From an uncultured Gammaproteobacteria bacterium (lineage in GTDB: Bacteria > Pseudomonadota > Gammaproteobacteria > DRJJ01): a stretch of 64,000 bases of DNA. The notes under the pieces are model-generated. The model saw only the letters and a program-made list of their open reading frames with translations. It ran no database searches and was not told the DNA's origin. Both the position numbers and the translations under genes were made by a program. The DNA lies in NCBI GenBank assembly GCA_947258795.1, contig CAMYJU010000005.1, positions 1-64,000 on the forward strand. The letters are read 5' to 3'. Shown here one piece after another: positions 2,275-31,249 of the stretch; position 1 is the first letter of the stretch; the number at the start of each line of letters is the position of its first letter.

Positions 2275-2290
2275 TGCATGACTCCGGAGT

Positions 2291-4231: not shown

Positions 4232-4266
4232 ATTCCATCACCCGTATAAAAAAAACGGCGGCAAGC

Positions 4267-5325: not shown

Positions 5326-5381
5326 TATCTTGATGCCGATATGTTAGGCACAAATGACCCCGCTTATAAAATCCGCGTTTA

Positions 5382-6371: not shown

Positions 6372-6395
6372 GAGCGTACTCTTCTTTATGTTTTT

Positions 6396-8935: not shown

Positions 8936-11078
8936 CATGACACGCTTGAGTCGACGTAATTTTATCAAGGTAAGCACTATAACCGGCACCGGTCTGATGT
9001 TAGGTTTTAATTTATCAGGCTGCAGTGACGATTCCGGTAATAGCGACAAGTCTTCAACTACATCATTCAATCCGAATGCCTGGCTCAGAATCACTGAAGA
9101 CAACAACATTACTATCATCGTTGCCGAATCGGAGATGGGTCAAGGCGTGATGACCTCCCTGCCCATGCTCATAGCCGAAGAACTGGAAGTAGATCTGAAC
9201 AAGGTAACGACCGAGCGCGCCCCGGTCGACCCGAAGTTCGGAAAACAGAAGACCGGTGGAAGTACCAGCATACGGGAGGCCTGGCATCCATTACGCCAGG
9301 CCGGCGCAATCGCCAGGGATATGCTGATTACAGCCGCCGCTACCACATGGAAAATCGCTGTATCTGATTGCAGTGCCAATAATGGCCATATAGAACATAC
9401 AATATCCGGTAAGCGCCTGAGTTATGGTGAACTGGCACCCCTGGCAGCAACCCTGCCCATCCCTGAAACTGCATTCCTGAAAAACCCGGAAGAGTTCAGG
9501 CTGATTGGAAAAAGCGTTCCTTTATTGAATGGACCGGACATGGTTACCGGCAAGACACTATTCGGGTCGGACGTCACCCTGCCTGATCTGCTGGTTGCCA
9601 CTATTGCCCATTGCCCGGTATTCGGCGGCCAACTCACCAGTATGGATGACAGCGAAACCAGAAAGATTCCGGGTGTACAGGATGTTGTCAGGATAGACAG
9701 CGGTGTCGCAGTTGTAGCCAGTCACTACTGGGCTGCACATAAAGGACTACAGTCCCTGAAGCTGGAATGGGACACGAAAGGTAATGAACGAATCAGCGAT
9801 CAGTCTATCATGGATCGCTTCAGCAGCCACCCGGACACAGCAAATGAAATCCTTTCGCAAACCGGTGATCCGGGTGCCGGGCTGCAACAGGCGAAAGAGA
9901 TTTTGGAAGCATTTTATACCACGCCATTTCAGGCACATGCGACCATGGAACCGATGAACTGCACAGCCCATGTCCATAACGGCGAATGCGACATCTGGGC
10001 GCCGACGCAGTCTCCCGATGATGCACAATATGTTGCCAGCACCTATATCCTGTCTACCACTGAAAAATTATTTGCAAAAATCAGACGCAAGATAAGTGAT
10101 GTCAGGCTGGATGCCATCAGGGTTCATACCACACAGATGGGCGGAGGCTTTGGCCGCCGGCTCGAGACGGATTACGTGGCTGAAGCGGTACAGTTATCAC
10201 TGGCCACAGGCAAGCCGGTCAAACTGATCTGGTCTCGCGAACAGGATATGCAACATGACTTTTACAGGCCCCTGACCCACCACCGGTTAAGCGGCGGTCT
10301 GGATACAAATAGCAGGATTTCAGCCTGGAAACATCATGTGATCGGACCATCACGAGGTAAGTCGACCGGTGGAGCTGAGCCGATCATCTATGCTGTCCCG
10401 GCATTCCAGCTCGGGTATACCGAAGATAACTATCCGGTCCCGACCGGGTATTGGCGCTCGGTAGGCAGCTCACACAATGGATTTGTTATCGAGTCTTTCG
10501 TTGATGAACTGGCATCCAGCGCCGGTGCTGACCCTTACCAGTTCCGGGCCGGCCTGCTGGAACACTCACCTCGTAACCTGGCCGTGCTAAGACTGGCTGC
10601 AGAAAAATCCGGCTGGGGAAGCCCGCTCGCCGAAAACACCGGAAGAGGTATAGCAGTCTTTGAATCCTATGGTTCACATGTAGCACAGGTTGCAGAGGTT
10701 ACAGTTACTCAATCCGGTACTGTCAGGGTAAACCGCGTCGTCTGTGCTGTCGATTGTGGTATTGCGGTCAACCCGGATACGATCAAGGCACAAATGGAAG
10801 GGGCTGTCGTGTTTGGGCTGACTGCCTGCCTGAAAAGCGCCATTAATATCGAAAAGGGACGGGTTATGCAGAGCAACTTTCATGATTTTCGGCTGCTTCG
10901 AATTGATGAAATGCCTGTTGTGGAAACGCATATCGTTGTCAGCGATGAAGAACCGGGCGGTATCGGAGAACCCGGCGTCCCGCCAATCGCGGCTGCCATT
11001 ACAAACGCGATTTATGCTGCAACCGGAGTGCGTATTCGCAGGCTGCCGGTGTCACCCGCCGACCTGGCCAGACACTAA
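8925..11078 (+). CDS. Molybdopterin-binding subunit of aldehyde/isoquinoline-type oxidoreductase, Tat-exported
   Basis: A 717-residue IorB-type large subunit that hydroxylates aldehydes or N-heterocycles with water. The N-terminus has the twin-arginine motif SRRNFIK at about residues 9-15, then a hydrophobic stretch ending in LSGC at residue 33. That is a lipobox, so the mature protein may be a periplasmic lipoprotein. Later motifs are the Mo-cofactor segment QMGGGFGRR near residue 405 and [13 protein letters not shown] near the C-terminus, with the probable catalytic Glu. The first ATG overlaps the small-subunit gene by 11 bases; the ATG at 8937 is an alternative. No Mo-cofactor insertion protein (XdhC/MocA) or cytochrome is adjacent. 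It converges with the glycosyltransferase-like gene; a link to the peptide pathway is unproven. Confidence 0.9.
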
Positions 11079-11115: not shown

Positions 11116-11982
11116 CTAGACGAATTCATTCCAGAAATGCTCGTCTTCTGACAAGCGTTGAAACAACATATTCGACTCTTCTGTATTTTTATCGATTATC
11201 CTGCGTATATCCCTGTACCAGTATGGATTGAAATACAGCCTTAGTAATATATCGCCTGTCATTCTGGTGAGCCTGGACCTGGAATGACGCGCCCTGTAAA
11301 TAAACCCTTTAAACCAGTATTTTTGTTCCAGCGGTATCGTGTCCTGTCGGCAGATAGGATCCCGAAAACCGGCACCATGATGATAAATCATATCTCCATA
11401 GATACCGTACCATACCGGATGCAGGTTTTTCCTGTTGGAGCGTTTTACCGGGTACCAGTCAATATTATTTGCTTCCAGCTTCTGTAACAGGTTGCCACCT
11501 GTATCTGTCACCCAGGTATCACTCATGTTTTTCCATTCATAGCCGGGCTTCCAGTCACCTTTTAGCTCTCTCCAGAATTTTACGGTCGTTGCACAATATA
11601 AGGGGTGCGGTTGAATATCATCCCCGTTCTCGCTTCTCTGTACCGCAATGAGGTGATGCTTTTCTATCAAATCACGTGTTTTTGACAGGTATTCGGTGAC
11701 TGGAAAGGCATCACCATCAAGAAATACCAGTAGATCATCATCATCGGCATCCTTGCAGGCAATATCAGCGAGGATATTCAGCTTGATCGAATGGCTGTAT
11801 GACATATAACAGGCATCGACACCCTCGGTAGATACAAAATCAAACTGATCCGAGACATCTTTATCGATACCACTTACAAAGGCATATATCTTGTAATTCT
11901 CGTGTGTGTACAGATCAAGATATTTTCTTTGCGGGGCTATCCATTTGTCATTACCCCAGTGCACTGTAAGAATATAGATCAT
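11116..11982 (-). CDS. Glycosyltransferase-like protein (GT-A type, family unassigned)
   Basis: A 288-residue soluble protein. An N-terminal strand IYILTVHWGNDKW leads to the motif LLVFLDGDAFPVTEYL near residue 87, where DGD could be the DxD metal and sugar-nucleotide site of a GT-A fold. Downstream are HPLYCATTVKFW and WYGIYGDMIYHHGAGFRDP, as in some conserved hypothetical glycosyltransferases. I do not recognise the exact family. It is the last gene of the minus-strand natural-product cluster, 108 AT-rich bases after the free sulfotransferase, so it may have its own promoter. It could glycosylate the peptide product or belong to polysaccharide assembly. Confidence 0.5.
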   Translation of the reverse strand: MIYILTVHWGNDKWIAPQRKYLDLYTHENYKIYAFVSGIDKDVSDQFDFVSTEGVDACYMSYSHSIKLNILADIACKDADDDDLLVFLDGDAFPVTEYLSKTRDLIEKHHLIAVQRSENGDDIQPHPLYCATTVKFWRELKGDWKPGYEWKNMSDTWVTDTGGNLLQKLEANNIDWYPVKRSNRKNLHPVWYGIYGDMIYHHGAGFRDPICRQDTIPLEQKYWFKGFIYRARHSRSRLTRMTGDILLRLYFNPYWYRDIRRIIDKNTEESNMLFQRLSEDEHFWNEFV

Positions 11983-12090
11983 GATTGATATTCAATAAAT
12001 ATTGTTTCAGGTGTATCGGCCTAATGGTCCAAAATAAAACATTATATTATGTATAGGATTTAATCAATCGCATTTCCATATTTTTTACAT

Positions 12091-12951
12091 TCACACCTCA
12101 AATCCAAGCTGGGTAACTTCAGAGATTTGCCTGTCGTTGAACAACCTGATATTCCTGTTTTTATATCTTCCTGTTGATGTTGGCTTTGAGAGATTAACCA
12201 GGCGACGGCATTCCTCGTCGGTTGTCTTGATATCCAGAAATTCGAGCAGCCTTTCCAGCTCAGGCTCGGGATTTTGGCAATATTCATCATAATTCAGCAA
12301 GTAGAAGTTGGAACCCAGGCTGTTACGGGCTGTCTCAATTGCCTGTTTATTACTGCGAATCCAGTATTCCAGTTGCATGTAGGGGATATTATCCTTCTCC
12401 AGATTGACACTCAAATCGTAACGATAGCCCCAGTATCTGAGCTGTTGTGTATTTGTACTAAAAGCCATATCCAGACCATGCCTGATAACATGTATGTATT
12501 TCATGTTCGGAAAGTAGTCAACCAGTTCCTGCAGAAACAAATGACTGATCGGCTCCTTCCAGCCCCAACGCGTCAGTTGATGCTTCCCTGAACACCAGTT
12601 TTGGGTAAACGCATGAATCAGCTCCTTTCTTCTACCCGACTTGATTGTCGACTTCCGGTACAGTGCTGTTATATACCTTATGATATCGGTCAGTGACCAG
12701 CCTTCCCCTGTCATACGCCTGGTAAACATGGATAGATAACGATCAAAATTCTCACGTCCTGTCGTTCTGATCCAGTCGGGCCTCTGGAATATTCGGGTAA
12801 ACAGCAGACTGTCATTCTGCTCGTCGATCTCGTCTCCCAGATAATATCCCAACTCCATCAGGGTCTGCGCTATCAGGCGTGTACCACTACCACCTAATGC
12901 ACCTATGACCACAGGATCTTTTTTTAACAATTTTGTTTCAGACATTTCCAT
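12091..12951 (-). CDS. PAPS-dependent sulfotransferase
   Basis: A 286-residue cytoplasmic sulfotransferase. The 5-prime phosphosulfate loop is GALGGSGTRLIAQTLMELGY near residue 18, and the 3-prime phosphate-binding segment is YIHVIRHGLDMAFSTN near residue 155. It would move sulfate from PAPS to a hydroxyl or amine. The gene starts 22 bases after the PKS/NRPS stop, so it is almost certainly in the same transcript and acts on the assembled product or a carrier-bound intermediate. It is separate from the sulfotransferase domain fused in the 953-aa NRPS. Start ATG at 12951, or the third codon at 12945. Confidence 0.75.
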   Translation of the reverse strand: MEMSETKLLKKDPVVIGALGGSGTRLIAQTLMELGYYLGDEIDEQNDSLLFTRIFQRPDWIRTTGRENFDRYLSMFTRRMTGEGWSLTDIIRYITALYRKSTIKSGRRKELIHAFTQNWCSGKHQLTRWGWKEPISHLFLQELVDYFPNMKYIHVIRHGLDMAFSTNTQQLRYWGYRYDLSVNLEKDNIPYMQLEYWIRSNKQAIETARNSLGSNFYLLNYDEYCQNPEPELERLLEFLDIKTTDEECRRLVNLSKPTSTGRYKNRNIRLFNDRQISEVTQLGFEV

Positions 12952-12973
12952 ATCGCACCACAGACTTCCATAA

Positions 12974-15900
12974 TTAGTTAAACAGGCGCTTGATCAGTTT
13001 ACTCATACTGCCTATCACTGATGATTTCCTGACATCCCTGGTTTGTACTGGTTGCTCTTCGCTCACATTCAAACCTGCCGCAATGTCGACCAACGGATAT
13101 AACACCAGATCCATCAAGGTGATATTGCTCTGCAATTCACTTCTAACCTGGTTAATAACCTGCATGGCCAACAGCGAATGCCCACCGATTTCAAAGAAAT
13201 TATCGCTTGACCTGATGCTGTCGATATATAACAGCGATTTCCATATTTCTGCCAGCTTCGTTTCCTCTGGCGACAGGGATTCAATCGCTTCTTCTGCAAT
13301 ACGGCTTTCCCCGAATGGCTCAGGCAGTTTTTTTCGGTCTATTTTCCCATTGGGTGTCTTCGGTACTTCCGCAAGTTCTATAAAAATCTGCGGTAACATG
13401 TACTTGGGCAGTGACTGGTTAAGATAGGATCGCAGGTCTGTCGAGGTCAGTGAGGCTTCATGTACAGGCACATAATAAGCCACCAGGCGACTATCTCCGG
13501 CACGTACCTCATGGATGGCCACAACACTTTCCTGTATGGCATCATGCTGATTCAGAATGGATTCGATTTCACCCAGTTCAATACGGTAACCACGGATCTT
13601 GACCTGGGAATCCAGGCGCCCATGAAATTCGATATTGCCATCCACCAGATACCTGGCTCCGTCACCCGTTCTGTAGAGTACGCTTTGTTCACTGGAAAAA
13701 GGATTCTGCACAAATCGCTCTTCGGTCAATTGCGGTCGATTCAGATAGCCTTTAGTGACACCTTCACCACCGATATACAACTCCCCGGGTACTCCCCATG
13801 GGGCCGGCTGCAGCGTCTGATCAAGGATATAGATCTGCGTATTGCCAATCGGCTTGCCAATGTGGACCGGGGCTGCAGGATCTTCTATCTGACAACAGGT
13901 AGACCATACGGTGGTCTCGGTCGGTCCATACATATTCCAGACACTGGCGGCCCTGCTACACAAATCACCAACCAGGTCGGCCGGCATCGCCTCCCCGCCA
14001 CACAGTATCTTCAGCTTGTCAGAACCCAGCCAGCCTGATCCGATCAGCATACGCCAGGTCCCCGGCGTCGCCTGCATGACGGTTGGCTGGTATTCCGCCA
14101 TCCGCTGTGACAATCGTATTCCATCCGATGACTCTTCGGCATCAACTATAAATACGGATGCGCCTGATATTAATGGTAAATACAGTTCCAGTACGGCAAT
14201 ATCAAATGACAGGGTCGTAATCGCCATCAGCCTGTCTTGATCACTCATCCCGGGTTGTTCCTGCATCGTGCACAGGAAATTAACTACACCCCGGTGTGGC
14301 ACCATGACACCCTTGGGTTTACCGGTCGAACCGGAAGTATAGATGATATAAGCCAGATCTTCCGGGGTGACATCCACTTCACCAGTCAGTTCGGAACTAC
14401 TGGCAGTTATAGCAGCCTGGTCCGTATCCAGGTTAATGAGCTGCAGGCCCTCGACGGGCAGACCTTCCAGAGACTGGCTATCAGCCACCAGATATTGCAG
14501 ACCGGAGTCCTCGACCATGAAATGCAGACGATCTTCCGGAAATTCCGGATCCAGCGGTACATAAGCGGCACCGGTTTTGAGTATTGCCAGTAAGGCAACC
14601 ACCATATCAACCGAACGTGTAACCGATAACCCGACCAGCGAGCGAACTTCAACTCCCTGCTTCTGTAAATAATGTGCCAACTGGCTGGAACGCTGTTCCA
14701 GCTCCTGATAACTGAGCTGATGACTGGTATCCGATACGGCAATGCTGTCAGCTCTGATCTTTACCTGCTCACTGACCAGATGATGCATGCATTGTTCTTT
14801 CGGATAGGCACGCCCGGTCCGGTTCCAGTCGTCCAGCAAATTGTGCCGCTCGGATTCTGTCAACAAGCCCAGCCTGGACAGGCTGCTATCCTGCTGCGCA
14901 AGAATTGATTCCAGCAAGTTGACATACAACGCCTGCCAATGCTCAATCGTCTGCTGATCAAACAGACTCTTGTTGTAGGTGCATTCCAGGTTGATATGCT
15001 CCTGATCCAGCAGCACATTGAAGAACAATTCAAATGTTTCAAAATGTCGGGGGTTTGAACCCTGGGTTATGTCGAGATTCTCGAAGTGTATACCACTGGC
15101 CAACTGGTCGATATTGAACACGACCGAGATTAACGGCAGGCGCGCAGGATCATGAGGAAACTCCAGATCGCCGACTACCGTTCCGTAGGTGCACAACTGA
15201 TGCTCAAACGACTCCAGCACTGTCGACTGGGTCGCTGTCAGCATCTCACTAAACGACTGCTTGCCATCGATCTCGATGCGCAAGGGCAGGAAATTCACAC
15301 AATGTCCGACCAGATCACGGCCACCGACCAGGGTTTGACCGGCAGCCGAAATACCGACATTAAATTCCGACTGGTAACTGAGACGATGTATCAGCACATT
15401 AAATACTGACAGCAGCAGACTGAATAAGGTTACTTTTCTACTCGATGCCAGCTGCCGTATGCGGGTCGCCAGGGTATCATCCAGGCGTTGCACTACCCTG
15501 TCTGCCTGATGGGTCTTTAATGGTGGTCGGGTATAGTCCAGCGGCAAATCAAGTGCCGGTGCCATATCAGCATGCTTGTCAACCCAGAAATGCCTGTCCA
15601 GTTCACGCTGTTGCTGCTGTTCTTCCTGGCATAACCACTGAGCATACTCCCTGAATTGCATCGGCTCTGGCGGCAGCTCACCGGTAAGCTGTGCACTGTA
15701 TAGCCGTCCGAGATCAGTTAACAGTGCGCCGGATGACCAGCCATCACAGGCGATATGATGAACCCCCAGAAACAGCACATGCGCCTGTTCAGACAATCGA
15801 TACAGACATAGCCTGTATAATGGACCATTTTCAAGGTCATAGGCTGTTTCCACATCCTTGTCAGCGTCTGCATGCAAACGTGCCTGTTGTGCCTCAGGTG

Positions 15901-18900
15901 ACAGGGTTTGCATATCAATACAGCGAACTTCCAGCTTATCAAGATGTGCACCGTAACGCGCCTTCCCTTCCTGACTGACAGTCAGACGCAAGGAGTCATG
16001 ACGGTTAATCATCAGCAGCAGGGCGTGATCCAGAATTTGTTTATCGAGCGTACCGGTCAGTTGTAATGTATTGGACAGGTTGTAGGCACACGATGCATTC
16101 TCTCCCAGGCAACAGGACAGCCAGACTTCCATTTGCCCATCGGTCAGGAACTGTTCTGCCGTCATTACAGCAGACGCCGGTATCATAGCTTCTGGCCGGG
16201 CAGTAGACGGCAGGAAACCACCCTGTTGCAGTGCTGCGACACTTTCTATAATAGCCAGTTTGACTGCTTCAAAATCCTGATCTGTATGTGCCGTTGAGAA
16301 GAACGATGAACGGCCTTCGGTAATATGGATACCCTTGTCCCGCAAATGATAATAAAGCAGGGTTGAATATTCCGGATGGCTGGTAAACTTGATATGGAAA
16401 AATGAACTGAAGGTCTCCACATGCAGCGGGGCGCCCATATTCATAAAGGCGTCATTCAGATCCTCAACAAACCGCTTCGTCCTGTTATTAAGCTGCTGTT
16501 GCAAGCCGGGACCCTGTTCACGCAAGTGCAGCAGTACCGCGCGGCAGGCAGCCAACGCCAATGGATGCCTGACAAAGGTACCTGCAAACCAGGTCACACC
16601 GGCTTCGGGTATGGAACCGTCACCGAACTGCCACATCCCCCCATCGAGGGCATCCAGATAACGATGATCTCCACTGACGATACCAATCGGCAGCCCACCA
16701 CCAACCACCTTGCCATAGGTCGCAATATCCGCCTTGACATCGAACAGGGCCTGCACCCCTCCCGGATGTGAACGAAATCCGGTGATCATTTCATCAAGCA
16801 CCAGTGCAATATCCAGCTCTCTGGTAAGCGTCCTGAGTTCTTTCAGGAAACTGACCGGCTGCGTGTCCGGGTGACGACTCTGTACCGGTTCAACCAGAAC
16901 TGCCGCAATGTCTCCGGCCTGTTCCCTGATTACCTCCAACGCGTGATTGTCGCCATATTCCAGTACCAGTACCTGTTCAACCATGTGCGGCAGAATACCT
17001 GGCGCCACCGGTATCGGACGTGCGCGATCACCCATGCTCAAACGCTTGACCAGCACCTCATCAAATATACCGTGGTAGGAGCCGGCAAAAATCACAATCT
17101 TGTCCCGTCCGGTCACGGTTCTCGCGACCCGAATCGCGGCCAGTACGGCCTCTGAACCGGTATTACAGAATGCCATACGCTCCATGCCGGTCATTTCACA
17201 GAACAGGCTGGCAGCCTCTCCGGCCAGTGGCGTTTGCGGGCCGATCTCATAGCCTTTGTGTAATTGCTCCTGAACAGCTGCACTGATAAATGCGGGTGTA
17301 TGGCCAAACAGGTTGACACCAAAACCCATGGCCATATCGATATACTCATTGCCATCGATATCCCATAGTCGGGAACCCGCAGACCGTTCTGCAACAACCG
17401 GATAGGCAATTTCTTTCCACAGCTTTCGAAAACCTGAAACAGTACGGGCGTCAGCGAGCTGTTTCCTGTTGGACTGAACCAACTCCCTGGAGGCCCTGGT
17501 CTTGCCGACGATACTTTCGATTAATGTATCCAGGTGTTTTTGTTGCTGCGCAGTCAGCCCTGAGCTGGCGCCGGTATCGATAGCCTTCCACGGCCCGGTC
17601 GTGATTTCAGGCTCATCGGTAGCCATTAACTCGCTGGCAGTGACCGCATGTTCTGATGTTGCTTCAGTCCCGGTCACAGGCTGTGCCAGCACTCCGCTGC
17701 CGGGCACCTGTTCAGCCTGGTTCTCCCTGATATAGTCTGTCAGGGCCGCCAGGTTTCCGAACTCCTCCATAACCTGTCTAAAGGTAATATTGACTGAAAA
17801 GCGTTTTTTTAATGCCAGGCTGACCTGGGTCAGCGCCAGTGAGTCGAACCCCAGTTCCAGAAAAGAAACATTGGGCCTGATCTGACCGGCTGACAGACCG
17901 CTAAGTTCAACCAGGATGTTTTTCAGCTCCTGCTCTATCGATGATTCGGTATCTGCCGATGCAGGCCCGGCCGAATCGGGCTGCTGTGTTGCATCCGAAA
18001 CCTCCGGGTATAACTGGTGGATGGTAGCCTTATGATGAGGTTTGCTTTCCCCCTCTATCCAGTAGCGCGTACGCTCGAATGCATAACCAGGGACTGAAAC
18101 ATGCTTGCGCTGTTCGTACTGGTAGTACTGGTCCCAGTCGACCTGCCCCCCTGCCGACCAGAGTTGACCGAGTGCGGATACCAGGCATGCCTGATCGTCG
18201 ATTTGCTCTTTTGGATACCGGATACTGTTGATCACGGCATGCGTGTCTTTAACCAGAGGATGCTGCCTGACAAAATTACACAAGGTCCTGCCCGGCCCCA
18301 TTTCGATAAAGCAGGCATTCTCTCTTTCCAGCAGTACCGCAAGCCCATCATAGAACCTTACGGTTTGGCGTAAGTGTTTTGACCAGTAGGCCGGATCAGT
18401 CGCCTGTTTATCGGTAATCCAGTCACCGGTCAGGTTAGATATAAACGGTATTTCAGGACGTGAAGGATTCGCAGACCTGGCCAGTTGTTCAAAGGGCTCC
18501 AGCGCAGCATCCATCATCGCGGAATGGAATGCATGTGAGGTTCGTAACTCCTGGTAACCTACCGATTGCTGTTGCAGGGTTTCCTGCAAGGCCTGCACAG
18601 ACTTGTGCGGTCCGGATACCACCGTCGCATTATTAGTATTGACGGTGGCGATCGAAATATCTACCGGCAACAGTCCAGACAGCTCATGTTCGGGCAGGGA
18701 AACCGCCAGCATACTGCCCGTGGACTGCTGCTGCATCAAACGTCCCCGTTCGGCCGCCAGCCTCAAGGCCTGCTCCAGGGTAAATACACCACTCAGACAG
18801 GCTGCCACATACTCACCGATACTGTGCCCGATCATTGCTGCAGGCTGTATACCCCAGCTCTGCCATAAACGCGACATCGCATATTCCGTTACGAACAGCG

Positions 18901-20698: not shown

Positions 20699-20721
20699 TT
20701 GAGGGGTCGAAGGAATACTGT

Positions 20722-23583
20722 CTACTTGTTCTGCTTACGTTGCCGGCGGTTACTCAATGCAGATCGGCGTTTTCCGGATTTGGCTGCCATCCTGGCCTGC
20801 CCTGCCGGTTGATTATATCCCAGTCTGACAGCCAGGTCCCATGTTGGTTCGCTTAAAAAATCATCGTTTTCAACACCCTGCCAGGCCTCAGCTACCTTCG
20901 GATTAATGGCCTTGTGTGCCAGCAGGTTGGTATCCCCCATCGGGATCGATACCTTGTGCAAACCATCAACCATCTTGCCCTGTATACCATCATACGGATT
21001 AACCAGGTTTTCATGATAACCGAGCCCCAGGGTCTGACATAGCCTACCCATTTCAGCGGCAGGATCATTGAGCATGTCCTCAAAACGCGTACGAAACCAC
21101 CGGTCCTCAGGTATCGTCTCCAGAAAGTTGACGATATTTCTGTGGGTAATCAGCCACACCAGTTCACCCAGCCTCCTCGGGCTAAAGGGTTGCTCACGCA
21201 AATACAGCACCTGCTCCATGTGGTAACGAACAAATGAATTTACCATCGCATAGGGATGGCGAACCAGGTGAATATACAGGGGCTTGTCAAAATCCTGCTC
21301 GGCCTTCTCCAGCGAGCGCATATCCAGACCATAAGACGGTGATTTGTCGACCAGCATCTGCTCGCCCAGCCAGCCCTGCAACTCGGCAAAAAACGCCTGA
21401 GTACTCAGGTTCCTGTCCTCGAAGTCAGACATAATCGCGGTGGCCTGATCCGCATCGCAGGACTTGATCTCCATAATCGCCCTAATAGTGCCTTCCCGCC
21501 ACAATTTGTATTTCCCGGAATACGCCTGTTTGCGTTCCTGCAAGGTATTAAAACCCAGTAACTGCAACTCGGCCGCTGCGAACAGATCAGGATGCCCGGC
21601 CAGCATAACCCTGAGCAGGGTGGTACCTGATCTGGGTGGCGCCAGGATAAAAATAGCCGGCGGATTTTTCCTGACAGCTTGTGTTTGTATCTGCTCCGGC
21701 AACATCACAATACAGGATTCCATGCGCTCGATATCGTTATTAGTCAGCTTGTCAGATACATTACTTTCACTGCCTGCATGAGCCGCGTCGCTTGCTGTTC
21801 CTGCAAACCTTTTCTTTACCGCGTCAGTGTAGTCTCTTTCAAGAAACCGGGCATAACTGGACACGGTAGGCGATTCAAATATGGTCAACACATAGATGAA
21901 TTCGCCGAGATCTTTTTGCAACTGACCAATAATGGCTGCTGCCTGTAACGATGTACCACCCAGATCAAAGAACCGGTCATTGATACCAACCTGCTCCAGC
22001 TCCAGCTCTTCCTGCCATAAATACACCAGGTGCTTTTCAATATCCGTCGTCGGTGTAACATATGCCTGATCCAGCACCGGTCTTTCCCTGCCGGGTCTGG
22101 GCAAGGCCTTGCGATCCAGCTTCCCGCTCACGGTCAGGGGCAGGCTGTCCATCAGCATGAACACCGATGGAACCATATGTTCGGGTAGACTCTCTTCAAC
22201 AAAGGTACGAACATCAGTAAGCGAGAATTCTGCTCCGGGATTCAGTACCAGATAAGCGACCAGTTTCTGGTTACCGGGTTTATCCTCTCTGAGCAACACC
22301 ACTGCCTGCTTTATCGAAGGATGTTTTTCAAGGTGCAGCTCGATTTCCCCGAGCTCTGTTCTGATGCCGCGGATTTTTACCTGGAAGTCTATACGCCCGA
22401 GAAACTCAACCGCACCGTTATCGCGTTTACGACCGATATCACCTGTTCGATACAGTCGCTGCCCCGGTGCTGCCGGATCCTCAACAAAACGCTCGGCTGT
22501 CAGCTCCGGACGATTCAGGTAACCACGCGCCACCTGGACCCCGCCTATACAGATCTCGCCTGCCTCGCCATCCGGGAGCGGACTTAGACTGTCATCCAGA
22601 ATCAGGATACTGGTGTTTGCGACTGGCCAGCCGATCGGGACCGTTTCTTCGTGATTACCACGCACACATTCCCACCAGGTCACATCAATCGCAGCCTCGG
22701 TCGGACCGTAAAGGTTATGCAGCTGCGCATCCAGTGTCTCGAAGAAGCAGTCACGCAGATCCGGTAGTAATGCCTCACCACTACAGATGACATGACGCAG
22801 GGATCGACAACTTGTTGCCAGCCCCGGTTCGTCCAGAAACAGGCGCAGCATGGATGGAACAAAATGCACGATACTGACCGATTCCTGTTCGATCAGCTTG
22901 GACATATAGGTACTGTCTTTATGACCGTCCGGACGCGCCAGCACCATGCTGGCACCGGTCATGATCGGCCAGAAAAACTCCCAGACAGAGACATCAAAGC
23001 TGTAAGGGGTCTTCTGCAGGATTCTGTCTGATGCATCGGCCTGGAAATGATCCTGCATCCATTGCAAGCGGTTACAGATACCCTGATGGGTATTCATAAC
23101 CCCCTTGGGCATACCGGTTGAGCCCGAGGTATAGATCACATAGGCGAGATCATCCGGCTGGATATCTGGCACAGTCAGCTCTGCTGAAAAAGATATTATC
23201 GCCTGCCAGTCGCTGTCGACACTAATGAGGTTATGCCTTGATGAAGATAAATCCGGCCTCAAGCTTTCCTGGGTCAATACACAAACCGGGTCTGCATCAC
23301 CCAGCATCACTGACAGTCTTTCTTCCGGGTATTCGGTATCGAGCGGGATATAGGCTGCACCGGCCTTCAGTATCGCCAGCAAGGCGACGACCATTTCCGG
23401 GGCGCGATGCATATACAGGGCAACCAGGCTGCCCTTATCCACACCCTGCTTGCATAAATAGGCAGCCAACTGTGTGGCCCGGCGATTGAGGTCTTCGTAT
23501 GAGAGCGCTTGACCGTCATAGATAACGGCTGGGTGATCCGGTGTGCGCGCTGCCTGCTGTTCAAATAATCCGTGTAATAGCAT
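20722..23583 (-). CDS. NRPS: A(Ser-like)-PCP-sulfotransferase
   Basis: A 953-residue protein that starts directly in an adenylation domain, with no condensation domain. A domain (1-495): YTSGSTGMPKG near 151, YGPTEAA near 292; the deduced code DVWHISLIDK differs by one residue from the published Ser code. PCP: Ser545 in DLGGTSLQ. A PAPS sulfotransferase domain follows (about 643-905) with APPRSGTTLLRVMLAGHP and HLVRHPYAMVNSF, closely resembling the CurM/olefin-synthase sulfotransferases that activate a beta-hydroxyl on a carrier-bound chain. The likely reaction is O-sulfonation of carrier-bound serine. Unlike CurM there is no thioesterase after it. The protein ends in a very basic tail (SGKRRSALSNRRQRKQNK). 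A 126-base gap separates it from the upstream NRPS gene. Confidence 0.93.
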   Translation of the reverse strand: MLLHGLFEQQAARTPDHPAVIYDGQALSYEDLNRRATQLAAYLCKQGVDKGSLVALYMHRAPEMVVALLAILKAGAAYIPLDTEYPEERLSVMLGDADPVCVLTQESLRPDLSSSRHNLISVDSDWQAIISFSAELTVPDIQPDDLAYVIYTSGSTGMPKGVMNTHQGICNRLQWMQDHFQADASDRILQKTPYSFDVSVWEFFWPIMTGASMVLARPDGHKDSTYMSKLIEQESVSIVHFVPSMLRLFLDEPGLATSCRSLRHVICSGEALLPDLRDCFFETLDAQLHNLYGPTEAAIDVTWWECVRGNHEETVPIGWPVANTSILILDDSLSPLPDGEAGEICIGGVQVARGYLNRPELTAERFVEDPAAPGQRLYRTGDIGRKRDNGAVEFLGRIDFQVKIRGIRTELGEIELHLEKHPSIKQAVVLLREDKPGNQKLVAYLVLNPGAEFSLTDVRTFVEESLPEHMVPSVFMLMDSLPLTVSGKLDRKALPRPGRERPVLDQAYVTPTTDIEKHLVYLWQEELELEQVGINDRFFDLGGTSLQAAAIIGQLQKDLGEFIYVLTIFESPTVSSYARFLERDYTDAVKKRFAGTASDAAHAGSESNVSDKLTNNDIERMESCIVMLPEQIQTQAVRKNPPAIFILAPPRSGTTLLRVMLAGHPDLFAAAELQLLGFNTLQERKQAYSGKYKLWREGTIRAIMEIKSCDADQATAIMSDFEDRNLSTQAFFAELQGWLGEQMLVDKSPSYGLDMRSLEKAEQDFDKPLYIHLVRHPYAMVNSFVRYHMEQVLYLREQPFSPRRLGELVWLITHRNIVNFLETIPEDRWFRTRFEDMLNDPAAEMGRLCQTLGLGYHENLVNPYDGIQGKMVDGLHKVSIPMGDTNLLAHKAINPKVAEAWQGVENDDFLSEPTWDLAVRLGYNQPAGQARMAAKSGKRRSALSNRRQRKQNK

Positions 23584-23709
23584 AGGTATTGAGTGCCTTT
23601 AACAAGGATATAAGACTCAACAGTATGGCATAGCCTGCACCCCTTGTTCTGCTGCTCCGAGCATAGATCCTGATTCAGACCGGGATTGTAGCACCTTACC
23701 GGCTATATA

Positions 23710-26700
23710 TCAGTTATTCCTCAGTTTACCTAACCACTTGGCCAGCATGGATTTTTCCTGTTTACCGGTCACTTTTTGCTCCATCAGTTTATCGCATTCC
23801 CTGGCAACTGCTTTCAAGTCTTCCTGGTAGATCGTAACCGCACTTAGATTGACTCCAAGCGTTTCACGTATCGTGGCCAGGGCCTGCATGGCCAGGATCG
23901 AATGACCACCGATAATGATAAAATTGTCGTCACGACTGACCCCATCGACCCCGACCAGTTCAGACCAGATCGCGGCCAGTACCTGCTCGGTTTCCGTCTC
24001 AGGTGGAATTATATCCCGGGAGGCGGTATCCACGGTTAACGGGGATGGCAGACGGTTACGATCCACTTTCCGGTTCGGCGTCAGTGGAAACTCACCCAGT
24101 TCCACAAAATGTTGCGGAATCATGTGATCAGGCAGTATTTCCCGTAGCGAGTTTCTCAGGCTGGTCGCGGTAGCCTGTGTCCCGGCACGAGACCTGTAAT
24201 AGGCCACCAGTCTTGGGGCATCTCCCTGCTGGGTATAAAGACTGGTAACCGCCTGCTCAACAGACGGATCCTGTTCCAGTGCCGAATCGATCTCGCCCAG
24301 TTCTATGCGGAAACCACGCAGCTTGACCTGATGATCCATCCTGCCCATGCAGATGAGCTGGCCGCTCTCACCGAGACATCCATAGTCACCGGTACGGTAA
24401 AGCCGCTGCTTGCCGACTCCTGGAATATCAAGCTCGACAAATCGCTGCCCGGTCAATTCAGGCCGGTTCAAATAGCCTCTTACCACCCCGTCTCCGGCGA
24501 TACATATCTCGCCCCGAATACCGGCAGGAACCGGTCGTAGCCGCTGGTCCAGTATATAGATCCGGGTATTGGCAAGTGGTTTACCTACCGGTATCTGCTT
24601 CTGCTCCTGCTTTACCTGGTAACTGCTGGACCAGATGGTGGTTTCAGTTGGACCATACATGTTGATCAGGGAAGTGGTATGGACCAGCTCACGGGCCAGG
24701 TTTTCTGTCATGCTTTCTCCGCCTATCAAAACATTTTTGATGCGGGAAAAAATAGCCGATGTTTGTGCATCCGCCAGCAGCATACCGGCCATCGAGGGTG
24801 TACATTGAAAATGGGTGACCTGGTATTTATCCACCAACGCAGGTAATGACATGGAAGCCTTGCTCTGCTCAGCGACCTTTTCTGCAACCAGTTGTTTAAG
24901 CTCATTCAGGTATGGCAGGTTCTCCAGTACCACGTCGGTATTAACACCATAATCAATCAAGCAGGCTATCTCATCAACACCGGCCTGATTGACCCGGCTG
25001 ATCATATCCAGACAATCCTCAGGCGAGCCGAACAAACCACTGGTACTGAAATAACGTTCGAATGCAAATTCAAGCAGATCATCGAGATCGGCATCCGAAA
25101 TAGCTTCGAAGTATTCATCCAGTGACTCACCCGTTTCCTCTGATGTTGCCTTGAATGTCGGGAAGTTCCACGCTGCTTTCTTGACCAGGAACATGGCGCT
25201 GGCCAGATATTTTTTCATCGGCGCCCTGGCAATTTCCTTTGCCTTTTCTGTAGAAGTACTGACCAGTGTGTGCAGCATCACCACCACATGGCCCTGCCCC
25301 GGATGCCCACATTGCCTCCAGGTACTCCGGTACAGTTCCAGTTTTTCTGCCAGCTCTTCTATCGTCTGACCAAGCAGATGGGTCAATATACCCGCACCTG
25401 CTTCGGCGGCCTTGACGAATGTTTCCGGGTTGCCGGCAACAGTCGCCCATACCGGCAACTCCTTCTGCACAGGCCGTGGCAAGGTGGATACCGTTACATC
25501 CCCCTTTGGACCAGGTAGAACCAGTGTTTCACCTTTCCATAAACGACGAAGTTGCTCGAGCGATTCAAACAGGATGGTTTTGGCATTGGTAAAGTTTTCG
25601 GGTTTGATCACAAAGTCCTCGGGTTGCCAGCCCGAAGCTACTGCCATACCGACACGACCATCAGACAGGTTATCCACTACCGCCCATTCCTCTGCGACAC
25701 GCACCGGATTATGCAGTGGTAGCACACAACTACCGGCCCTGATTTTTACATTTTTTGTGGCCACCGCCAGCGCAGCACTGGTGACAGACGGATTCGGGAA
25801 CAAGCCACCAAAATCGTGGAAATGACGTTCCGGTGTCCACACAGCGGTAAATCCGTTTTCATCGCCATATTTCGCACTTTCCAGTAACAGGCGATACTTG
25901 TTTTCGTTGCCCTGATCATCCGGGACCAGGTTCCAGTAAAACAGACTGAAATCAACCGGTCTGATGGCAGGCTTACTGTCAGGAACTTCATACCTTTCGG
26001 GTTCAACATAAAGCACAACTGTGAATCCACGTGTCAGTGTCCAGAACAACTCCAGTACCGAAATATCGAAGGAAATACTGGTTACCGCCAGCCAGGTACC
26101 CGGTTCGGGATGCTCCAGCACATCATCCATACCCGAAAAGAAATTCACAACATTGGCCTGCTCGACCACCACACCTTTGGGCTGACCTGTCGAGCCCGAT
26201 GTATAGATAACATAGGCCGCATTGGATGCATCAGTATCAAGCTCGGGATTCTCACTGCTGCACTGCTCGATCTGATCCAGGTCCTTTCTGTAGTTCACCA
26301 GTTCAAAATCTGCTTTTGTATCCCCCAACAGACTGTCGTCGTCGCTGATCACCACCTTCGATCCGGAATCCTCGACCATATACTGTATCCGGTGCCCTGG
26401 ATAGGCCGGGTCCAGTGGTACGTAGGCGCCCCCTGCCTTCAGGGTTGCCAGCAAGGCGATCATCATCTCAGTAGAGCGTTTCATATGTATGCCCACCAGC
26501 TGTTCCGGACCGACACCCTTGCCGATCAGATAGTGGGCCAGGCGATTGGCGCGCCTGTTTAGCTCCGCATAACTCAGTTCATCCTGGCCACACACCAACG
26601 CCAGCTGGTCAGGCGTTTTGGCTACCTGCCCGGCAAACAATTGTTGAATACCTTGCCTGTAGTCAACCTGCTTGCCTGTTGCATTCCAGTCAATCAGCAG

Positions 26701-28371
26701 GGACTGGATATCTTTCTGATCCAGCAGATTGACATCACATAGCAGCCTGTCCCGCCTGGGTAAATCCGAAACCAGCTGCCGAAATTGCTGCTGCATGATC
26801 TCGATCTGCCGGGCAGTATGCACATCAGCATGATAAAACCATTCCAGCCCGCTGAAATCATGCGCCGGGCGTATATACAATGCGGCAGATACTGCCGGTA
26901 TTTCATCCTGACCCGGTTCACCGGGGACAGCCAGAACAACCGGGAAAAGCCTGTCATCGGTATAGTAAGGTAAACTCCTGAGCTCAGGAGTACGTAAAGG
27001 CAAATCCGAGGCGAAGACGAGGTGCGTCTGAACTTCCCGGTACCCTGCCTCAATCATCCGGCAATGATCAGCAAACCCGGTTTCTGAATTAACATCATGG
27101 ATGAACGGGATACAAGTCTGATACAGATTGTGGTTCTTGCTTTCATGCAGCGCACTTACATCCAACACAAGGCCTGTGCTTTCATTACCGGTAAGACGGT
27201 ATAGATAGGCAAGCACAGCCGCCAGGAATGCAGGCATCATATCCAGACATTGCCTACCCGACAGTCCGGACAGTTCAGGCAGGTCCTGATGCCCTGCCCG
27301 GATCAGTGACTTGTTATCGACTGCCTGGCTGTCTCGTACATACGGCAGCGTTGTAAGCTGAAGCTCAGTCAGGTGCCTGATCCAAAAGGCCTCTTGCAAA
27401 CAGAAGTCTCTCCTGGTCTGCAACCCCTTCTCCAGAAGGGCCTCCTGGCCGGTATCCAGGCTATCACCAATATTCACGCCCGCGGCAGATAAAAATGCCC
27501 CTGGCTTTAACTCGCGAACTGACTGATCTGGCAAAACTGACAGACTGATATCCCTGGTCGCCGTACTGAACACAATGTTGCTGTCTGAATACGATACCAG
27601 CGTACCGGCAGGCATATTCGAAGATTGCTCGAGTACATCGGCCTGCCTGACAATCAATTGCCGATCATTGACCGGCAGTCGGGCAAGCCCGACCGGGTTG
27701 TAATAAGGCCCAAATTCCAGGGCACGTGTCAGTGCAGATATGGCTTCGGCCGGGCCGGACAGATCGATACCCAGTGACATTTCCTTGCAGGGAGGGCAAT
27801 AGCTAGCCTCATCCAATTGGTGCGCAACCGGTGATATTTTATCATTTTCGATATCATTCAGCAGTTCATTGAAGCAAGCCAGCCCCTGTTCAAGGCATTT
27901 GATATTCAGGCTGAAGGCGGTTTCATCAGTCGCAATCGGAAAGGTGTGTTGCTTGATTATATCGCCCGCATCTGCCTGCTCTGTCATCTGATGCCAGGTG
28001 ACACCATACTCAGCTTCCTGGTTCAGGATTGCCCAGACAGGTGCATTAATACCTGCATACCTTGGTAAAGGGCCATCATGAAAATTAATGGCCATACGAG
28101 CCGGTAACTTCAGGACCTCTGCCGGTATGATTTTCAGATTGACGATACTGAATAGATAATCGAATTGATACTTGTCCAGGTCTGCATAAGAACTACTTGT
28201 ATGTTCACGGTATTCCAGGGAATGCTCATTACACCAGGCTGCAACATCCGGGTCACTGGAGATGACCAGGCTGATGGTATGATCACGATCGAGCAGCTGT
28301 TGACCACACTCAATCAATAGTGACTGCTGACCAATTAATACGCAATTGAATTGTTTGCTGCTCGCGGACAT
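23710..28371 (-). CDS. NRPS: formyltransferase - half C domain - A(Gly-like) with inserted luciferase-like monooxygenase - PCP
   Basis: A 1553-residue protein. Residues 8-190 are a formyltransferase catalytic domain with INFHDGPLPRYAGINAP near 95, and 205-305 look like its C-terminal OB-fold domain. Residues 325-555 resemble only the C-terminal half of a condensation domain; no HHxxxDG is present. The adenylation domain spans 575-1440: YTSGSTGQPKG near 723 and SFDISVLELFW (A4) near 767, then a MupA/Atu3671-type flavin monooxygenase (about 798-1165), then the domain resumes at YQVTHFQCTPSMA and MYGPTETTIW (A5). The code DILQLGMIWK is Gly-like. PCP: Ser1492 region, IGGHSIL. An insertion at this site is known in MtaG and MelG, where it oxidises glycine. 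The tail ends KWLGKLRNN. Confidence 0.93.
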   Translation of the reverse strand: MSASSKQFNCVLIGQQSLLIECGQQLLDRDHTISLVISSDPDVAAWCNEHSLEYREHTSSSYADLDKYQFDYLFSIVNLKIIPAEVLKLPARMAINFHDGPLPRYAGINAPVWAILNQEAEYGVTWHQMTEQADAGDIIKQHTFPIATDETAFSLNIKCLEQGLACFNELLNDIENDKISPVAHQLDEASYCPPCKEMSLGIDLSGPAEAISALTRALEFGPYYNPVGLARLPVNDRQLIVRQADVLEQSSNMPAGTLVSYSDSNIVFSTATRDISLSVLPDQSVRELKPGAFLSAAGVNIGDSLDTGQEALLEKGLQTRRDFCLQEAFWIRHLTELQLTTLPYVRDSQAVDNKSLIRAGHQDLPELSGLSGRQCLDMMPAFLAAVLAYLYRLTGNESTGLVLDVSALHESKNHNLYQTCIPFIHDVNSETGFADHCRMIEAGYREVQTHLVFASDLPLRTPELRSLPYYTDDRLFPVVLAVPGEPGQDEIPAVSAALYIRPAHDFSGLEWFYHADVHTARQIEIMQQQFRQLVSDLPRRDRLLCDVNLLDQKDIQSLLIDWNATGKQVDYRQGIQQLFAGQVAKTPDQLALVCGQDELSYAELNRRANRLAHYLIGKGVGPEQLVGIHMKRSTEMMIALLATLKAGGAYVPLDPAYPGHRIQYMVEDSGSKVVISDDDSLLGDTKADFELVNYRKDLDQIEQCSSENPELDTDASNAAYVIYTSGSTGQPKGVVVEQANVVNFFSGMDDVLEHPEPGTWLAVTSISFDISVLELFWTLTRGFTVVLYVEPERYEVPDSKPAIRPVDFSLFYWNLVPDDQGNENKYRLLLESAKYGDENGFTAVWTPERHFHDFGGLFPNPSVTSAALAVATKNVKIRAGSCVLPLHNPVRVAEEWAVVDNLSDGRVGMAVASGWQPEDFVIKPENFTNAKTILFESLEQLRRLWKGETLVLPGPKGDVTVSTLPRPVQKELPVWATVAGNPETFVKAAEAGAGILTHLLGQTIEELAEKLELYRSTWRQCGHPGQGHVVVMLHTLVSTSTEKAKEIARAPMKKYLASAMFLVKKAAWNFPTFKATSEETGESLDEYFEAISDADLDDLLEFAFERYFSTSGLFGSPEDCLDMISRVNQAGVDEIACLIDYGVNTDVVLENLPYLNELKQLVAEKVAEQSKASMSLPALVDKYQVTHFQCTPSMAGMLLADAQTSAIFSRIKNVLIGGESMTENLARELVHTTSLINMYGPTETTIWSSSYQVKQEQKQIPVGKPLANTRIYILDQRLRPVPAGIRGEICIAGDGVVRGYLNRPELTGQRFVELDIPGVGKQRLYRTGDYGCLGESGQLICMGRMDHQVKLRGFRIELGEIDSALEQDPSVEQAVTSLYTQQGDAPRLVAYYRSRAGTQATATSLRNSLREILPDHMIPQHFVELGEFPLTPNRKVDRNRLPSPLTVDTASRDIIPPETETEQVLAAIWSELVGVDGVSRDDNFIIIGGHSILAMQALATIRETLGVNLSAVTIYQEDLKAVARECDKLMEQKVTGKQEKSMLAKWLGKLRNN

Positions 28372-28386
28372 CGTTGTTACCCGTGA

Positions 28387-29277
28387 TTAGCGAACGTCAT
28401 GTTCTAAACGCTGTTGTCCATATGAGTTCTCCAGCCACTGCCTGATACGGGCCGTCAATAACTCGCGTTGTGATAAAAAAGTATAGGTGTGATCCGACAA
28501 CCTGTACAACTCAACATCAAGCAAATCCTCAAAATCCAGTGTAGGGAAACTGTCCCGAATCTGCCCCGGATAATTGATCATCCATAATTCCGAAGCCGTA
28601 AACAGAAACAGCATATGGACCTTGCGACTGATCAGTTCAGCATAATCCTTTATGGCTACATTTTTGTCCGGCAATTTCCAGAAATAACTGTCATCTGCTT
28701 CCGGACCACTTATCACCTGTTTTCGTGGTTTCAGTTTTCTTAGCCACTTTTTGATAAAGTTCTTCCATTTTCCGGCAATAAAAAGTTTACCACTGACTTT
28801 TTTCACCTTCTCCATCAGCTTGAGAAAATAGGTGTGACGGGTTGGATAGGCATACCCGCCCATAAACACACACCCGGTAACACGCTCATCGGCCACTGCG
28901 GCACGATGCGCATTGTCGGCACCGGTACAAAGCCCGATCAGTATGAATTTTTCCGATCCTTTCTGCTTCCCGAGAAAATCCATTGCCTCCTTGATCTCGC
29001 CAACAGCTCGTTCCTGATAACTCGGGTTGGCTTTTCTTGTCTGACTGTCACCGATGGCAGACAGATCAAACCTGAGTACCGTATAACCCTGGTCAGCTAT
29101 GTCCCTGGCCATTTCCACAGCCAGCCTGTGCGGGCCAACATGATGAATCAGGCCGGAATTAAGGATAATGACCGTAGGCAAACCCTGCTTTTGCTGACTG
29201 GCTTCCGGTTCAGTGACTACCCCAACCAGTGAATTTCCCATGCCGAATGTATAGACCTTTTCCACATCAGCCCCCAT
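28387..29277 (-). CDS. Alpha/beta hydrolase with Cys at the nucleophile elbow
   Basis: A 296-residue alpha/beta hydrolase-fold protein. The oxyanion-side motif is NSGLIHHVGPHRL near residue 41, and the nucleophile elbow reads LIGLCTGADNA, placing Cys117 where Ser normally sits. A candidate catalytic His lies in LSDHTYTF near the C-terminus. Cys-type thioesterases are known in some NRPS systems, so this free enzyme is a candidate for product release or editing, given that no assembly-line protein has a thioesterase domain. Paired hydrolases of this size also accompany exosortase-A loci. The frame is open to a TTG at 29295, but ATG 29277 is preferred; it overlaps the preceding hydrolase by 11 bases. 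The NRPS start follows after 15 bases. Confidence 0.8.
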   Translation of the reverse strand: MGADVEKVYTFGMGNSLVGVVTEPEASQQKQGLPTVIILNSGLIHHVGPHRLAVEMARDIADQGYTVLRFDLSAIGDSQTRKANPSYQERAVGEIKEAMDFLGKQKGSEKFILIGLCTGADNAHRAAVADERVTGCVFMGGYAYPTRHTYFLKLMEKVKKVSGKLFIAGKWKNFIKKWLRKLKPRKQVISGPEADDSYFWKLPDKNVAIKDYAELISRKVHMLFLFTASELWMINYPGQIRDSFPTLDFEDLLDVELYRLSDHTYTFLSQRELLTARIRQWLENSYGQQRLEHDVR

Positions 29278-30061
29278 CAGCAAGAAATGTTGCAATACTT
29301 TGTAACAATACCGGAGATATCAGTGCCAGCTTCAGTGATTCGACACCATGCCAGACATCGTCATTCGGGACATAGTTACAGACTACTGGCAGATTCTTTT
29401 GTTGCATATTTTCCAGCAGGCTCTTGTAAACAGGCTTTTCTTCCGTAATAGTCAAACTGATGCTGCTAGCCTGCATGATTACGTTGTTCAGCTTCACACC
29501 CGATATGGATTCAAGTACCGCATCCGGAAAGTGAAACCCGAAGAACTCGTTGCCTGTATGAGGCATTTCCGTGATAGAGTGATTGATTCGGTCTCTATGC
29601 TGTTCCAGCAATGCCTGCTCCATATCCATCATATCCTGCACATAGGCCTCGCCATCAGTCACCGGATCCCAAAGTACCAGCTTGTTCAGCCTGGTTTCTG
29701 ATGATGCCAGTGCCGCCAGTGCGGCCCCGAAGCGCACCCCGATGACCGACAGCCGGGAAACAGCAGACATATCCTTTAACTCGGTAAGTGCGGTCTTGAT
29801 ATCCTGCAGCCACTGACTAACATCCCCTTCATCGGTCCGGCCTGCTGAGTTTCCGGATCCATAGTAATCAAACCGCAGCACATGGAATCCAAGGCTGGTC
29901 AATCTGCCGGTTAACTGGGTCAGCACGCGATGAGTACGGATATACTCCTCACCGGTTGGGTAACAGATCAGCACCGCTTCATCACGGTATTGTTGTGCGG
30001 CAGGTGGATGGTATACGCCGTAAAGCTGCTTATTGGTATCACCAAAAAAAAACGGATTCAT
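29267..30061 (-). CDS. Alpha/beta hydrolase-fold protein with Arg at the nucleophile elbow
   Basis: A 264-residue alpha/beta hydrolase-fold protein, first gene of the natural-product operon. The core strand and oxyanion region LICYPTGEEYIRTHR and the following LRFDYYGSGNSAG are well kept, but the elbow reads SVIGVRFGAALAA, so Arg110 occupies the nucleophile position. It may be non-catalytic, act as a partner of the Cys-elbow paralogue that overlaps its 3-prime end, or use another residue. The third to sixth codons form a run of nine T on the coding strand (FFF), where slippage could occur. A 12-base palindrome lies just upstream of its start, and a purine-rich GGGGAG serves as ribosome-binding site. 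Confidence 0.75.
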   Translation of the reverse strand: MNPFFFGDTNKQLYGVYHPPAAQQYRDEAVLICYPTGEEYIRTHRVLTQLTGRLTSLGFHVLRFDYYGSGNSAGRTDEGDVSQWLQDIKTALTELKDMSAVSRLSVIGVRFGAALAALASSETRLNKLVLWDPVTDGEAYVQDMMDMEQALLEQHRDRINHSITEMPHTGNEFFGFHFPDAVLESISGVKLNNVIMQASSISLTITEEKPVYKSLLENMQQKNLPVVCNYVPNDDVWHGVESLKLALISPVLLQSIATFLADGG

Positions 30062-30711: not shown

Positions 30712-30853
30712 TTTACCCATCCTGTAGTCGTAGCTGTCTGTCGTCATTGTTCAAAAGGTGACGTATGACACAAAGCTCAGCCGCGTTTTGAACGAAGATA
30801 TCACACAGGAAATGGTAATAATACCTTGATATCAATAATACAGGTACTTGCAG

Positions 30854-31249
30854 ATGTTACGGACAAGCACAAAGCTCACGAATGTTATTGCACTCATTTT
30901 TGCCAGCACGCTGCTCACTGCATGTGGTGGCGGTGGCGGTGGCAGCACTGCCGATGATGGCGGTGGCGGCAATCCACCACCATCCGGTTCAGGCTCTATC
31001 ACACTATCCTGGGTTGCACCTGCAACCCGCACAGATGGTAATCAGCTCTCACTGTCTGAAGTTGGTGGATACAAGGTATACATAGGTACCAGCTCAGGTA
31101 ACTATAACGCTCCGGTCGATGTCGGGACTGCTACCACGCACACTTTCAATGATCTTGGACAGGGCAACTACTACTTGGCCGTTGCTGTTTATGACACCAA
31201 CCTACAGGACAGCACACCATCAGGTGAGGTCACAGCCGCGATCAACTGA
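30854..31249 (+). CDS. Small lipoprotein with fibronectin type III-like domain
   Basis: A 131-residue secreted protein. The signal peptide runs from MLRTSTKLTNVIALIFAST to the lipobox LTAC at about residue 25, followed by a glycine run (GGGGGGS) and a Gly/Pro spacer to about residue 50. The remainder, from SITLSWVAPATRTDG through GGYKVYIGTSSGNYNAPVDV to TFNDLGQGNYYLAVAVYD, has the strand pattern of a single Fn3 domain. It is probably anchored in the outer membrane and displayed on a flexible linker. The frame is open to a TTG at 30848; the ATG at 30854 is preferred. It is monocistronic and followed by a hairpin terminator. Function unknown; carbohydrate or surface binding is possible. Confidence 0.75.
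   Translation: MLRTSTKLTNVIALIFASTLLTACGGGGGGSTADDGGGGNPPPSGSGSITLSWVAPATRTDGNQLSLSEVGGYKVYIGTSSGNYNAPVDVGTATTHTFNDLGQGNYYLAVAVYDTNLQDSTPSGEVTAAIN

Follow-up and report, generated by a model that had tools for sequence, protein, structure and literature searches.

A non-ribosomal peptide/polyketide line inside a gammaproteobacterial exopolysaccharide locus: a candidate source of acyl groups for a surface polymer

What would an assembly line combining a formyltransferase, an embedded monooxygenase, an aminotransferase and a sulfotransferase make, and what is it doing among genes for exopolysaccharide (EPS)? The question is raised by seven genes at 11116-30061, on the reverse strand of the window analysed here, a stretch of 64,000 nucleotides (contig CAMYJU010000005.1, positions 1 to 64,000) from an uncultured gammaproteobacterium. 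Three of them, P0003, P0002 and P0001, encode non-ribosomal peptide synthetase (NRPS) and polyketide synthase (PKS) modules, and two encode the hydrolases hyd1 and hyd2. The answer we favour, with modest confidence, is that this functional-looking line belongs to the EPS locus and makes a short aminoacyl or acyl group for a polysaccharide or lipid-linked precursor.

The seven genes are open, co-directional and tightly packed. Their intergenic gaps of 15-126 bases, with one overlap (29 bases, between hyd1 and hyd2), are compatible with one operon, and the arrangement fits this description; a scan upstream for sigma-70 promoters gave no more sites than shuffled sequence. An earlier interpretation made from the letters alone, hereafter the sequence-only reading, had described seven same-direction genes with these coordinates and domains, and both the open frames and Pfam and NCBIfam profile searches of the window proteins bear it out (Table 1). 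The catalytic motifs are intact, including the KS Cys/His/His, the malonyl-type HAFH of the AT, the PLP Lys, HHIACDG in the condensation (C) domain, the carrier sites, N-x-H and Asp in the formyltransferase (FT), and the PSB loop, RHPY and GLH of the sulfotransferase (ST). That all catalytic domains are present, that the AT is malonyl-type and that neither P0001 nor P0002, which ends after its ST, has a thioesterase (TE) is read from sequence.

Table 1. Coordinates of the assembly-line genes, their domains and the surrounding features in the window
Feature	Position	Strand	Remarks
P0003	23710-28371	-	FT - half C - A(Gly)[LLM insert] - PCP; 1553 aa
Formyltransferase domain of P0003	27442-28371	-	Fmt/ArnA fold; N96-F-H98 and D134 invariant in 12 relatives
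Half condensation domain of P0003	26662-27441	-	C-terminal lobe only; no HHxxxDG
Luciferase-like FMN monooxygenase (LLM) in A domain of P0003	24895-25950	-	TIGR04020; between A4 (FDIS) and A5 (YGPTE)
Peptidyl carrier protein (PCP) domain of P0003	23824-23982	-	GGHS
P0002	20722-23583	-	A(Ser) - PCP - ST; 953 aa; Pfam matches include Sulfotransfer_3
CurM/OLS-type ST domain of P0002	20803-21660	-	E ~2e-62 to both 4gox and 4gbm
P0001	12974-20698	-	KS - AT(malonyl) - ACP - aminotransferase - C - A(Gly) - PCP; 2574 aa
Class-III aminotransferase (AMT) domain of P0001	16199-17521	-	Closest solved relative mycosubtilin synthase AMT 6kfm
hyd2, alpha/beta hydrolase	29267-30061	-	Best NCBIfam hydr2_PEP, below cut-off; predicted trans-acting release enzyme
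hyd1, alpha/beta hydrolase	28387-29295	-	Best NCBIfam hydr1_PEP, below cut-off; TTG start uncertain
P0005, free sulfotransferase	12091-12951	-	Pfam
P0004, family-less	11116-11982	-	LDGDAFP motif; possible GT-A glycosyltransferase
Neighbouring operon	1861-8179	-	Carrier protein (7910-8179), AMP ligase, NAD-synthase-like, GNAT-like, asparagine-synthase amidotransferase, glyoxalase-like
Xanthine-dehydrogenase-family oxidoreductase	8462-11078	+	2Fe-2S (8462-8935) and molybdopterin (8925-11078) subunits
EPS genes, part 1	31351-53041		Wzy-like ligase, GT4s, nucleotide-sugar enzymes, CapK-like ligase
EPS genes, part 2	31351-53041		Second amidotransferase, deacetylase, flippase, FemAB-like GNAT (50982-52088), sulfotransferase (52112-53041)

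The genes on both sides of the line (1861-8179 and 31351-53041) place it in the middle of an EPS locus that spans about 1.9 to 53 kb and gives way to housekeeping genes beyond 53 kb. The stand-alone cluster of the sequence-only reading is thus not upheld, and relatives of both P0003 and P0001 also lie in EPS loci. For P0003, tblastn on plasmids was combined with a scan of genome contigs, from which 80 loci in at least ten phyla (by record title) were fetched. The FT-half C-A[LLM]-PCP order is complete at about 40% identity on alphaproteobacterial plasmids, a Deinococcus plasmid relative has its FT on a separate frame, and all 80 fetched loci encode the whole protein, again at about 40% identity, with FT and LLM sharing one frame. 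The surroundings of annotated relatives hold flippases, sugar transferases, exosortase, Wza/Wzc-type genes and phosphopantetheinyl transferase (PPTase) genes. At least two strict EPS genes were found within 10 kb at 44 of the 59 loci of at least 20 kb, whereas of 34 control stretches, each about 20 kb long and drawn from these genomes at fixed positions, 2 had as many (Fisher p = 4e-11). The loci are phylogenetically non-independent, with many from Rhodobacteraceae, and the reference gene set is mostly proteobacterial.

A KS-AT-KR-DH PKS adjoins the FT-LLM protein in 62 of the 80 loci, 55 of these with a TE, and the usual partner is a one-module KS-AT-KR-DH-ACP-TE; the window has KS-AT-ACP-AMT-C-A-PCP instead, plus A-PCP-ST. 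Like the MupA/Atu3671-family LLM synthetases (TIGR04020), the window has an LLM above the curated cut-off, and full-length plasmid homologues bear that NCBI name along with the P0003 domain order; the family's usual partner is KS-AT-KR-DH-ACP-TE too. Neither the aminotransferase synthase nor the ST parts were found in any fetched locus, and the window line is a rare variant of the FT-half C-A[LLM]-PCP cassette.

P0001 has a comparable setting of its own. Full-length relatives occur on rhizobial and Variovorax plasmids (41-43% identity over 96-98%), and rhizobia commonly have its architecture. With the same Gly code in its A domain, it lies between a separate A gene and a separate C-domain gene in Rhizobium CCGE531, Rhizobium SL42, Ensifer canadensis and Sinorhizobium fredii NXT3; the window shares the order of A gene and AMT line and lacks the separate C-domain gene. 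Since four rhizobial AMT lines (L180-L183) adjoin sugar transferase, GT4, Wza or flippase genes, the AMT line is also a line of EPS loci, independent of the FT-LLM protein. The idea that the single parts are unique was rejected: each has many relatives, P0003 is widespread at full length, and P0001 too has full-length relatives. The single parts and both half-lines are known kinds; the unusual feature of the window is their combination, and what was not found described is whole assembly lines in an EPS setting. As the sequence-only reading had held, no described pathway with all the parts was found in the open-access literature, nor any described EPS-linked NRPS/PKS system; an NRPS gene is noted on a Phaeobacter inhibens plasmid that has many polysaccharide genes, with no link drawn between them (PMC4062626).

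The main rival is a stand-alone small molecule: an ordinary secreted natural product, such as a formylated and/or sulfated beta-amino acyl peptide, whose cluster merely lies inside the EPS locus or is co-regulated with it. Its architecture is typical of natural-product lines; PuwE, a KS-AT-ACP-AmT-Ox-C-A-PCP protein, makes a free lipopeptide (PMC4219810), and the FT-LLM relatives L032 and L059 stand beside other NRPS genes with no EPS genes detected. PuwE and MycA share with the window the AMT class and the KS-AT-ACP-AMT-C-A-PCP order, whereas the window has no fatty-acyl ligase start and no TE, and carries its LLM on another protein, inside an A domain. However, both halves of the line recur in EPS neighbourhoods across unrelated bacteria, and no dedicated exporter or resistance gene was seen at 11-30 kb. 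We consider a free small molecule rather unlikely, while giving it more weight than the other alternatives.

The hydrolases bear on how an EPS-linked product would leave a line without a TE. Among the relatives, hyd1 occurs in none of the 55 loci with a TE-bearing PKS, and the three TE-less PKS loci that are complete and run into no additional NRPS (L034, L043 and L088) all carry hyd1 with hyd2 adjoining, a mutual exclusion for which Fisher's test gives p from 1e-4 to 9e-4. The four remaining TE-less loci are truncated at the locus end or, in L056, run on into another NRPS, and L080, with no PKS nearby, has both hydrolases. Strong hyd1 matches are confined to 4 of 25 carrier genomes, exactly those with hyd1 beside the FT gene (L034, L043, L088 and L080). 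The window line, itself TE-less, begins with hyd2-hyd1. As the pair is found only where the partner synthase has no TE, hyd1 and hyd2 probably provide the release or transfer step. With the exosortase-A set (hydr1_PEP/hydr2_PEP; NCBIfam) the window shares the hydrolase pair, AMP ligase, carrier protein and amidotransferase in one locus; it differs in that its hydrolases score under the curated cut-offs (67.8 of 168 bits for TIGR03100 and 103.9 of 203 for TIGR03101) and its exosortase lies elsewhere in the genome, which also has a PPTase-family gene. In keeping with a release role, hyd2-hyd1 also closes a second NRPS/PKS locus of the window genome (L128, L174 and L175; contig 3, 1-44 kb), in whose vicinity is a flippase sharing 39% identity with the one at 49414-50982.

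The chemistry expected of P0003 follows from its unusual domains. Its A-domain code, derived by alignment like the others given here, is DILQLGMIWK (A1), which we take to specify Gly, and the pocket pattern D-I-L-x-x-G-M-I/V-W is kept in at least 85 of 91 FT-LLM proteins. The monooxygenase insert proposed earlier is confirmed by TIGR04020 (478.6 bits; cut-off 244 bits); its closest solved relative is PuwE (6ket; E=3e-109), not MtaG, which the sequence-only reading named with MelG as a precedent. MupA and MtaG are also included in TIGR04020, and both work on carrier-bound thioesters at their alpha position. In PuwE, the Ox domain is inferred to supply a 3-amino-2-hydroxy acyl chain with its 2-hydroxyl (PMC4219810). 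Given this alpha-position chemistry in all three proteins, the LLM of P0003 would be expected to alpha-hydroxylate carrier-bound Gly, and with the FT it would yield an N-formyl-alpha-hydroxyglycyl unit, which could lose formamide.

The N-terminal part of P0003 was modelled with AlphaFold (residues 1-575, pLDDT 82). In a fold search the first ~310 residues match methionyl-tRNA and ArnA formyltransferases, and all top matches listed for residues 1-575 fall on the FT; the next ~260 residues align to the C-terminal lobe of the cluster's own C domain with 97.6% probability. The half C domain is real, and HHxxxDG is absent both from it and from the 91 FT-LLM proteins scanned. The LgrA, mycosubtilin synthase and CurM precedents cited by the sequence-only reading hold, the best solved relatives being LgrA for FT-A overall, 6kfm for the aminotransferase and OLS 4gox and CurM 4gbm for the ST. 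LgrA has its FT fused ahead of A-PCP, as P0003 does, but P0003 has the extra half C and LLM insert. The best PDB sequence match of the FT is WbkC, a GDP-perosamine N-formyltransferase, followed by ArnA, which would suit an enzyme that formylates an amino sugar of the polysaccharide while A-LLM-PCP serves a separate activity. Fusion of the FT to A[LLM]-PCP in every fetched locus and a match to methionyl-tRNA formyltransferase at least as good in the fold search make this improbable. Least credible is a siderophore or metal-binding peptide, suggested by one looser AMT-containing rhizobial relative beside iron-uptake genes (TonB receptor and ferric reductase in Allorhizobium ampelinum, L184), since the scan of window genes turned up no gene for iron uptake and annotated EPS-located relatives show no iron genes.

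Sulfation is the feature that P0002 would add to an EPS-linked line. Its A-domain code is DVWHISLIDK (A2), presumably for Ser. The ST shares its three motifs with CurM and OLS, at the same E value to both; the ST of CurM follows a reducing PKS module and precedes a TE, whereas that of the window follows a Ser A-PCP with no TE after it, an arrangement that would not be expected to support CurM-type decarboxylative alkene formation. Two gammaproteobacteria (L126 and L127, the N-terminus of one lying beyond the contig end) have a CurM-type ST mid-chain, in C-A(Thr code)-PCP-ST-C-A-PCP-TE. The ST thus sits on hydroxy-amino-acid modules, after Ser in the window and Thr in these two, a position that fits sulfation of a side-chain hydroxyl on the carrier. 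On an Agrobacterium vitis plasmid (L124), A-PCP-ST-TE stands beside cysN/cysD, ectB and a 2OG-Fe dioxygenase, an arrangement that suggests sulfation-triggered release of a small amino-acid product. The window EPS locus further contains free sulfotransferase genes at 12091-12951 and 52112-53041, both possibly for polysaccharide sulfation, and the genome as a whole has at least four sulfotransferase genes or domains.

These features can be combined into a candidate pathway. On P0003, the LLM would hydroxylate the alpha-carbon of carrier-bound Gly and the FT would formylate its nitrogen. On P0002, the ST would sulfate the beta-hydroxyl of carrier-bound Ser, and the sulfate may be a final group or a leaving group on the way to dehydroalanine or an aziridine. 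The KS of P0001 would then accept a Gly or Ser aminoacyl starter, to which malonyl is added; the canonical FT cassettes point to the Gly unit, and the rhizobial cassettes, with an A gene ahead of KS-AT-ACP-AMT-C-A-PCP, to the Ser unit. The aminotransferase would form a beta-amine, and C-A-PCP would add Gly, which we assume from its code, DILQLGMVWK (A3). Finally, hyd1 and hyd2 would release or transfer the product in trans, and enzymes of the surrounding EPS locus would attach it.

Several observations weigh against this EPS assignment. Attachment to a polysaccharide is inferred solely from gene neighbourhood, and no member of the group has a known product. The EPS enrichment is tempered by the non-independence of its loci and by its mostly proteobacterial reference set. 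Thirteen loci have a zero EPS score, Chloroflexi and Myxococcus among them; with such a reference set, zero scores in other groups are partly a blind spot, and L043, despite its zero score, encodes deacetylases, a GT2 domain and an amidotransferase. The window's full combination of parts was found in no other locus, and LgrA is more distant in sequence from the P0003 FT than sugar formyltransferases are. In the window genome, whose assembly is 97.3% complete, there is a Sat-type ATP sulfurylase, but no convincing adenosine 5'-phosphosulfate (APS) kinase and no CysD were found, which leaves the supply of 3'-phosphoadenosine 5'-phosphosulfate unaccounted for. A PF01583 match at C3:203253 was rejected as an APS kinase, its frame looking like a phosphotransferase/AAA kinase and TIGR00455 giving no match.

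The EPS setting of related lines in many bacteria suggests, without proof, that they decorate the slime coat. We would more tentatively propose that many phyla attach NRPS/PKS-built groups to EPS on a common alpha-hydroxy-formyl-Gly theme, to which the window would add O-sulfation of carrier-bound Ser, leading to dehydration or to ring closure, and two hydrolases acting as the transferase. Should the product prove to be polysaccharide-bound, bacteria would have in assembly-line enzymes a general means of modifying their surface polymers, and for many orphan NRPS/PKS clusters, in Rhodobacteraceae, rhizobia and other phyla, the explanation would be surface decoration rather than antibiotics or siderophores. 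This idea is directly testable in cultured carriers, and the A(Ser)-PCP-ST and A(Thr)-PCP-ST arrangements make it possible to test whether a CurM-type sulfotransferase is used on amino acids.

The remaining genes of the locus are less telling. The sequence-only reading called P0004 glycosyltransferase-like, a label that only its LDGDAFP motif suggests; P0004 has no Pfam or NCBIfam match above cut-off and its structure model is poor (pLDDT 39.6). A relative at 44-46% occurs in one other genome among 369 gammaproteobacterial genomes. For P0005, a PDB sequence search gave no relative. In L034 and L037, relatives of the molybdopterin subunit precede the FT gene by no more than 300 bases, and the oxidoreductase at 8462-11078 may therefore belong to the pathway, for example by oxidising an aldehyde product. 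Between the two gene blocks, a small frame (30848-31249, forward strand) has a lipoprotein-like signal and a Gly-rich linker.

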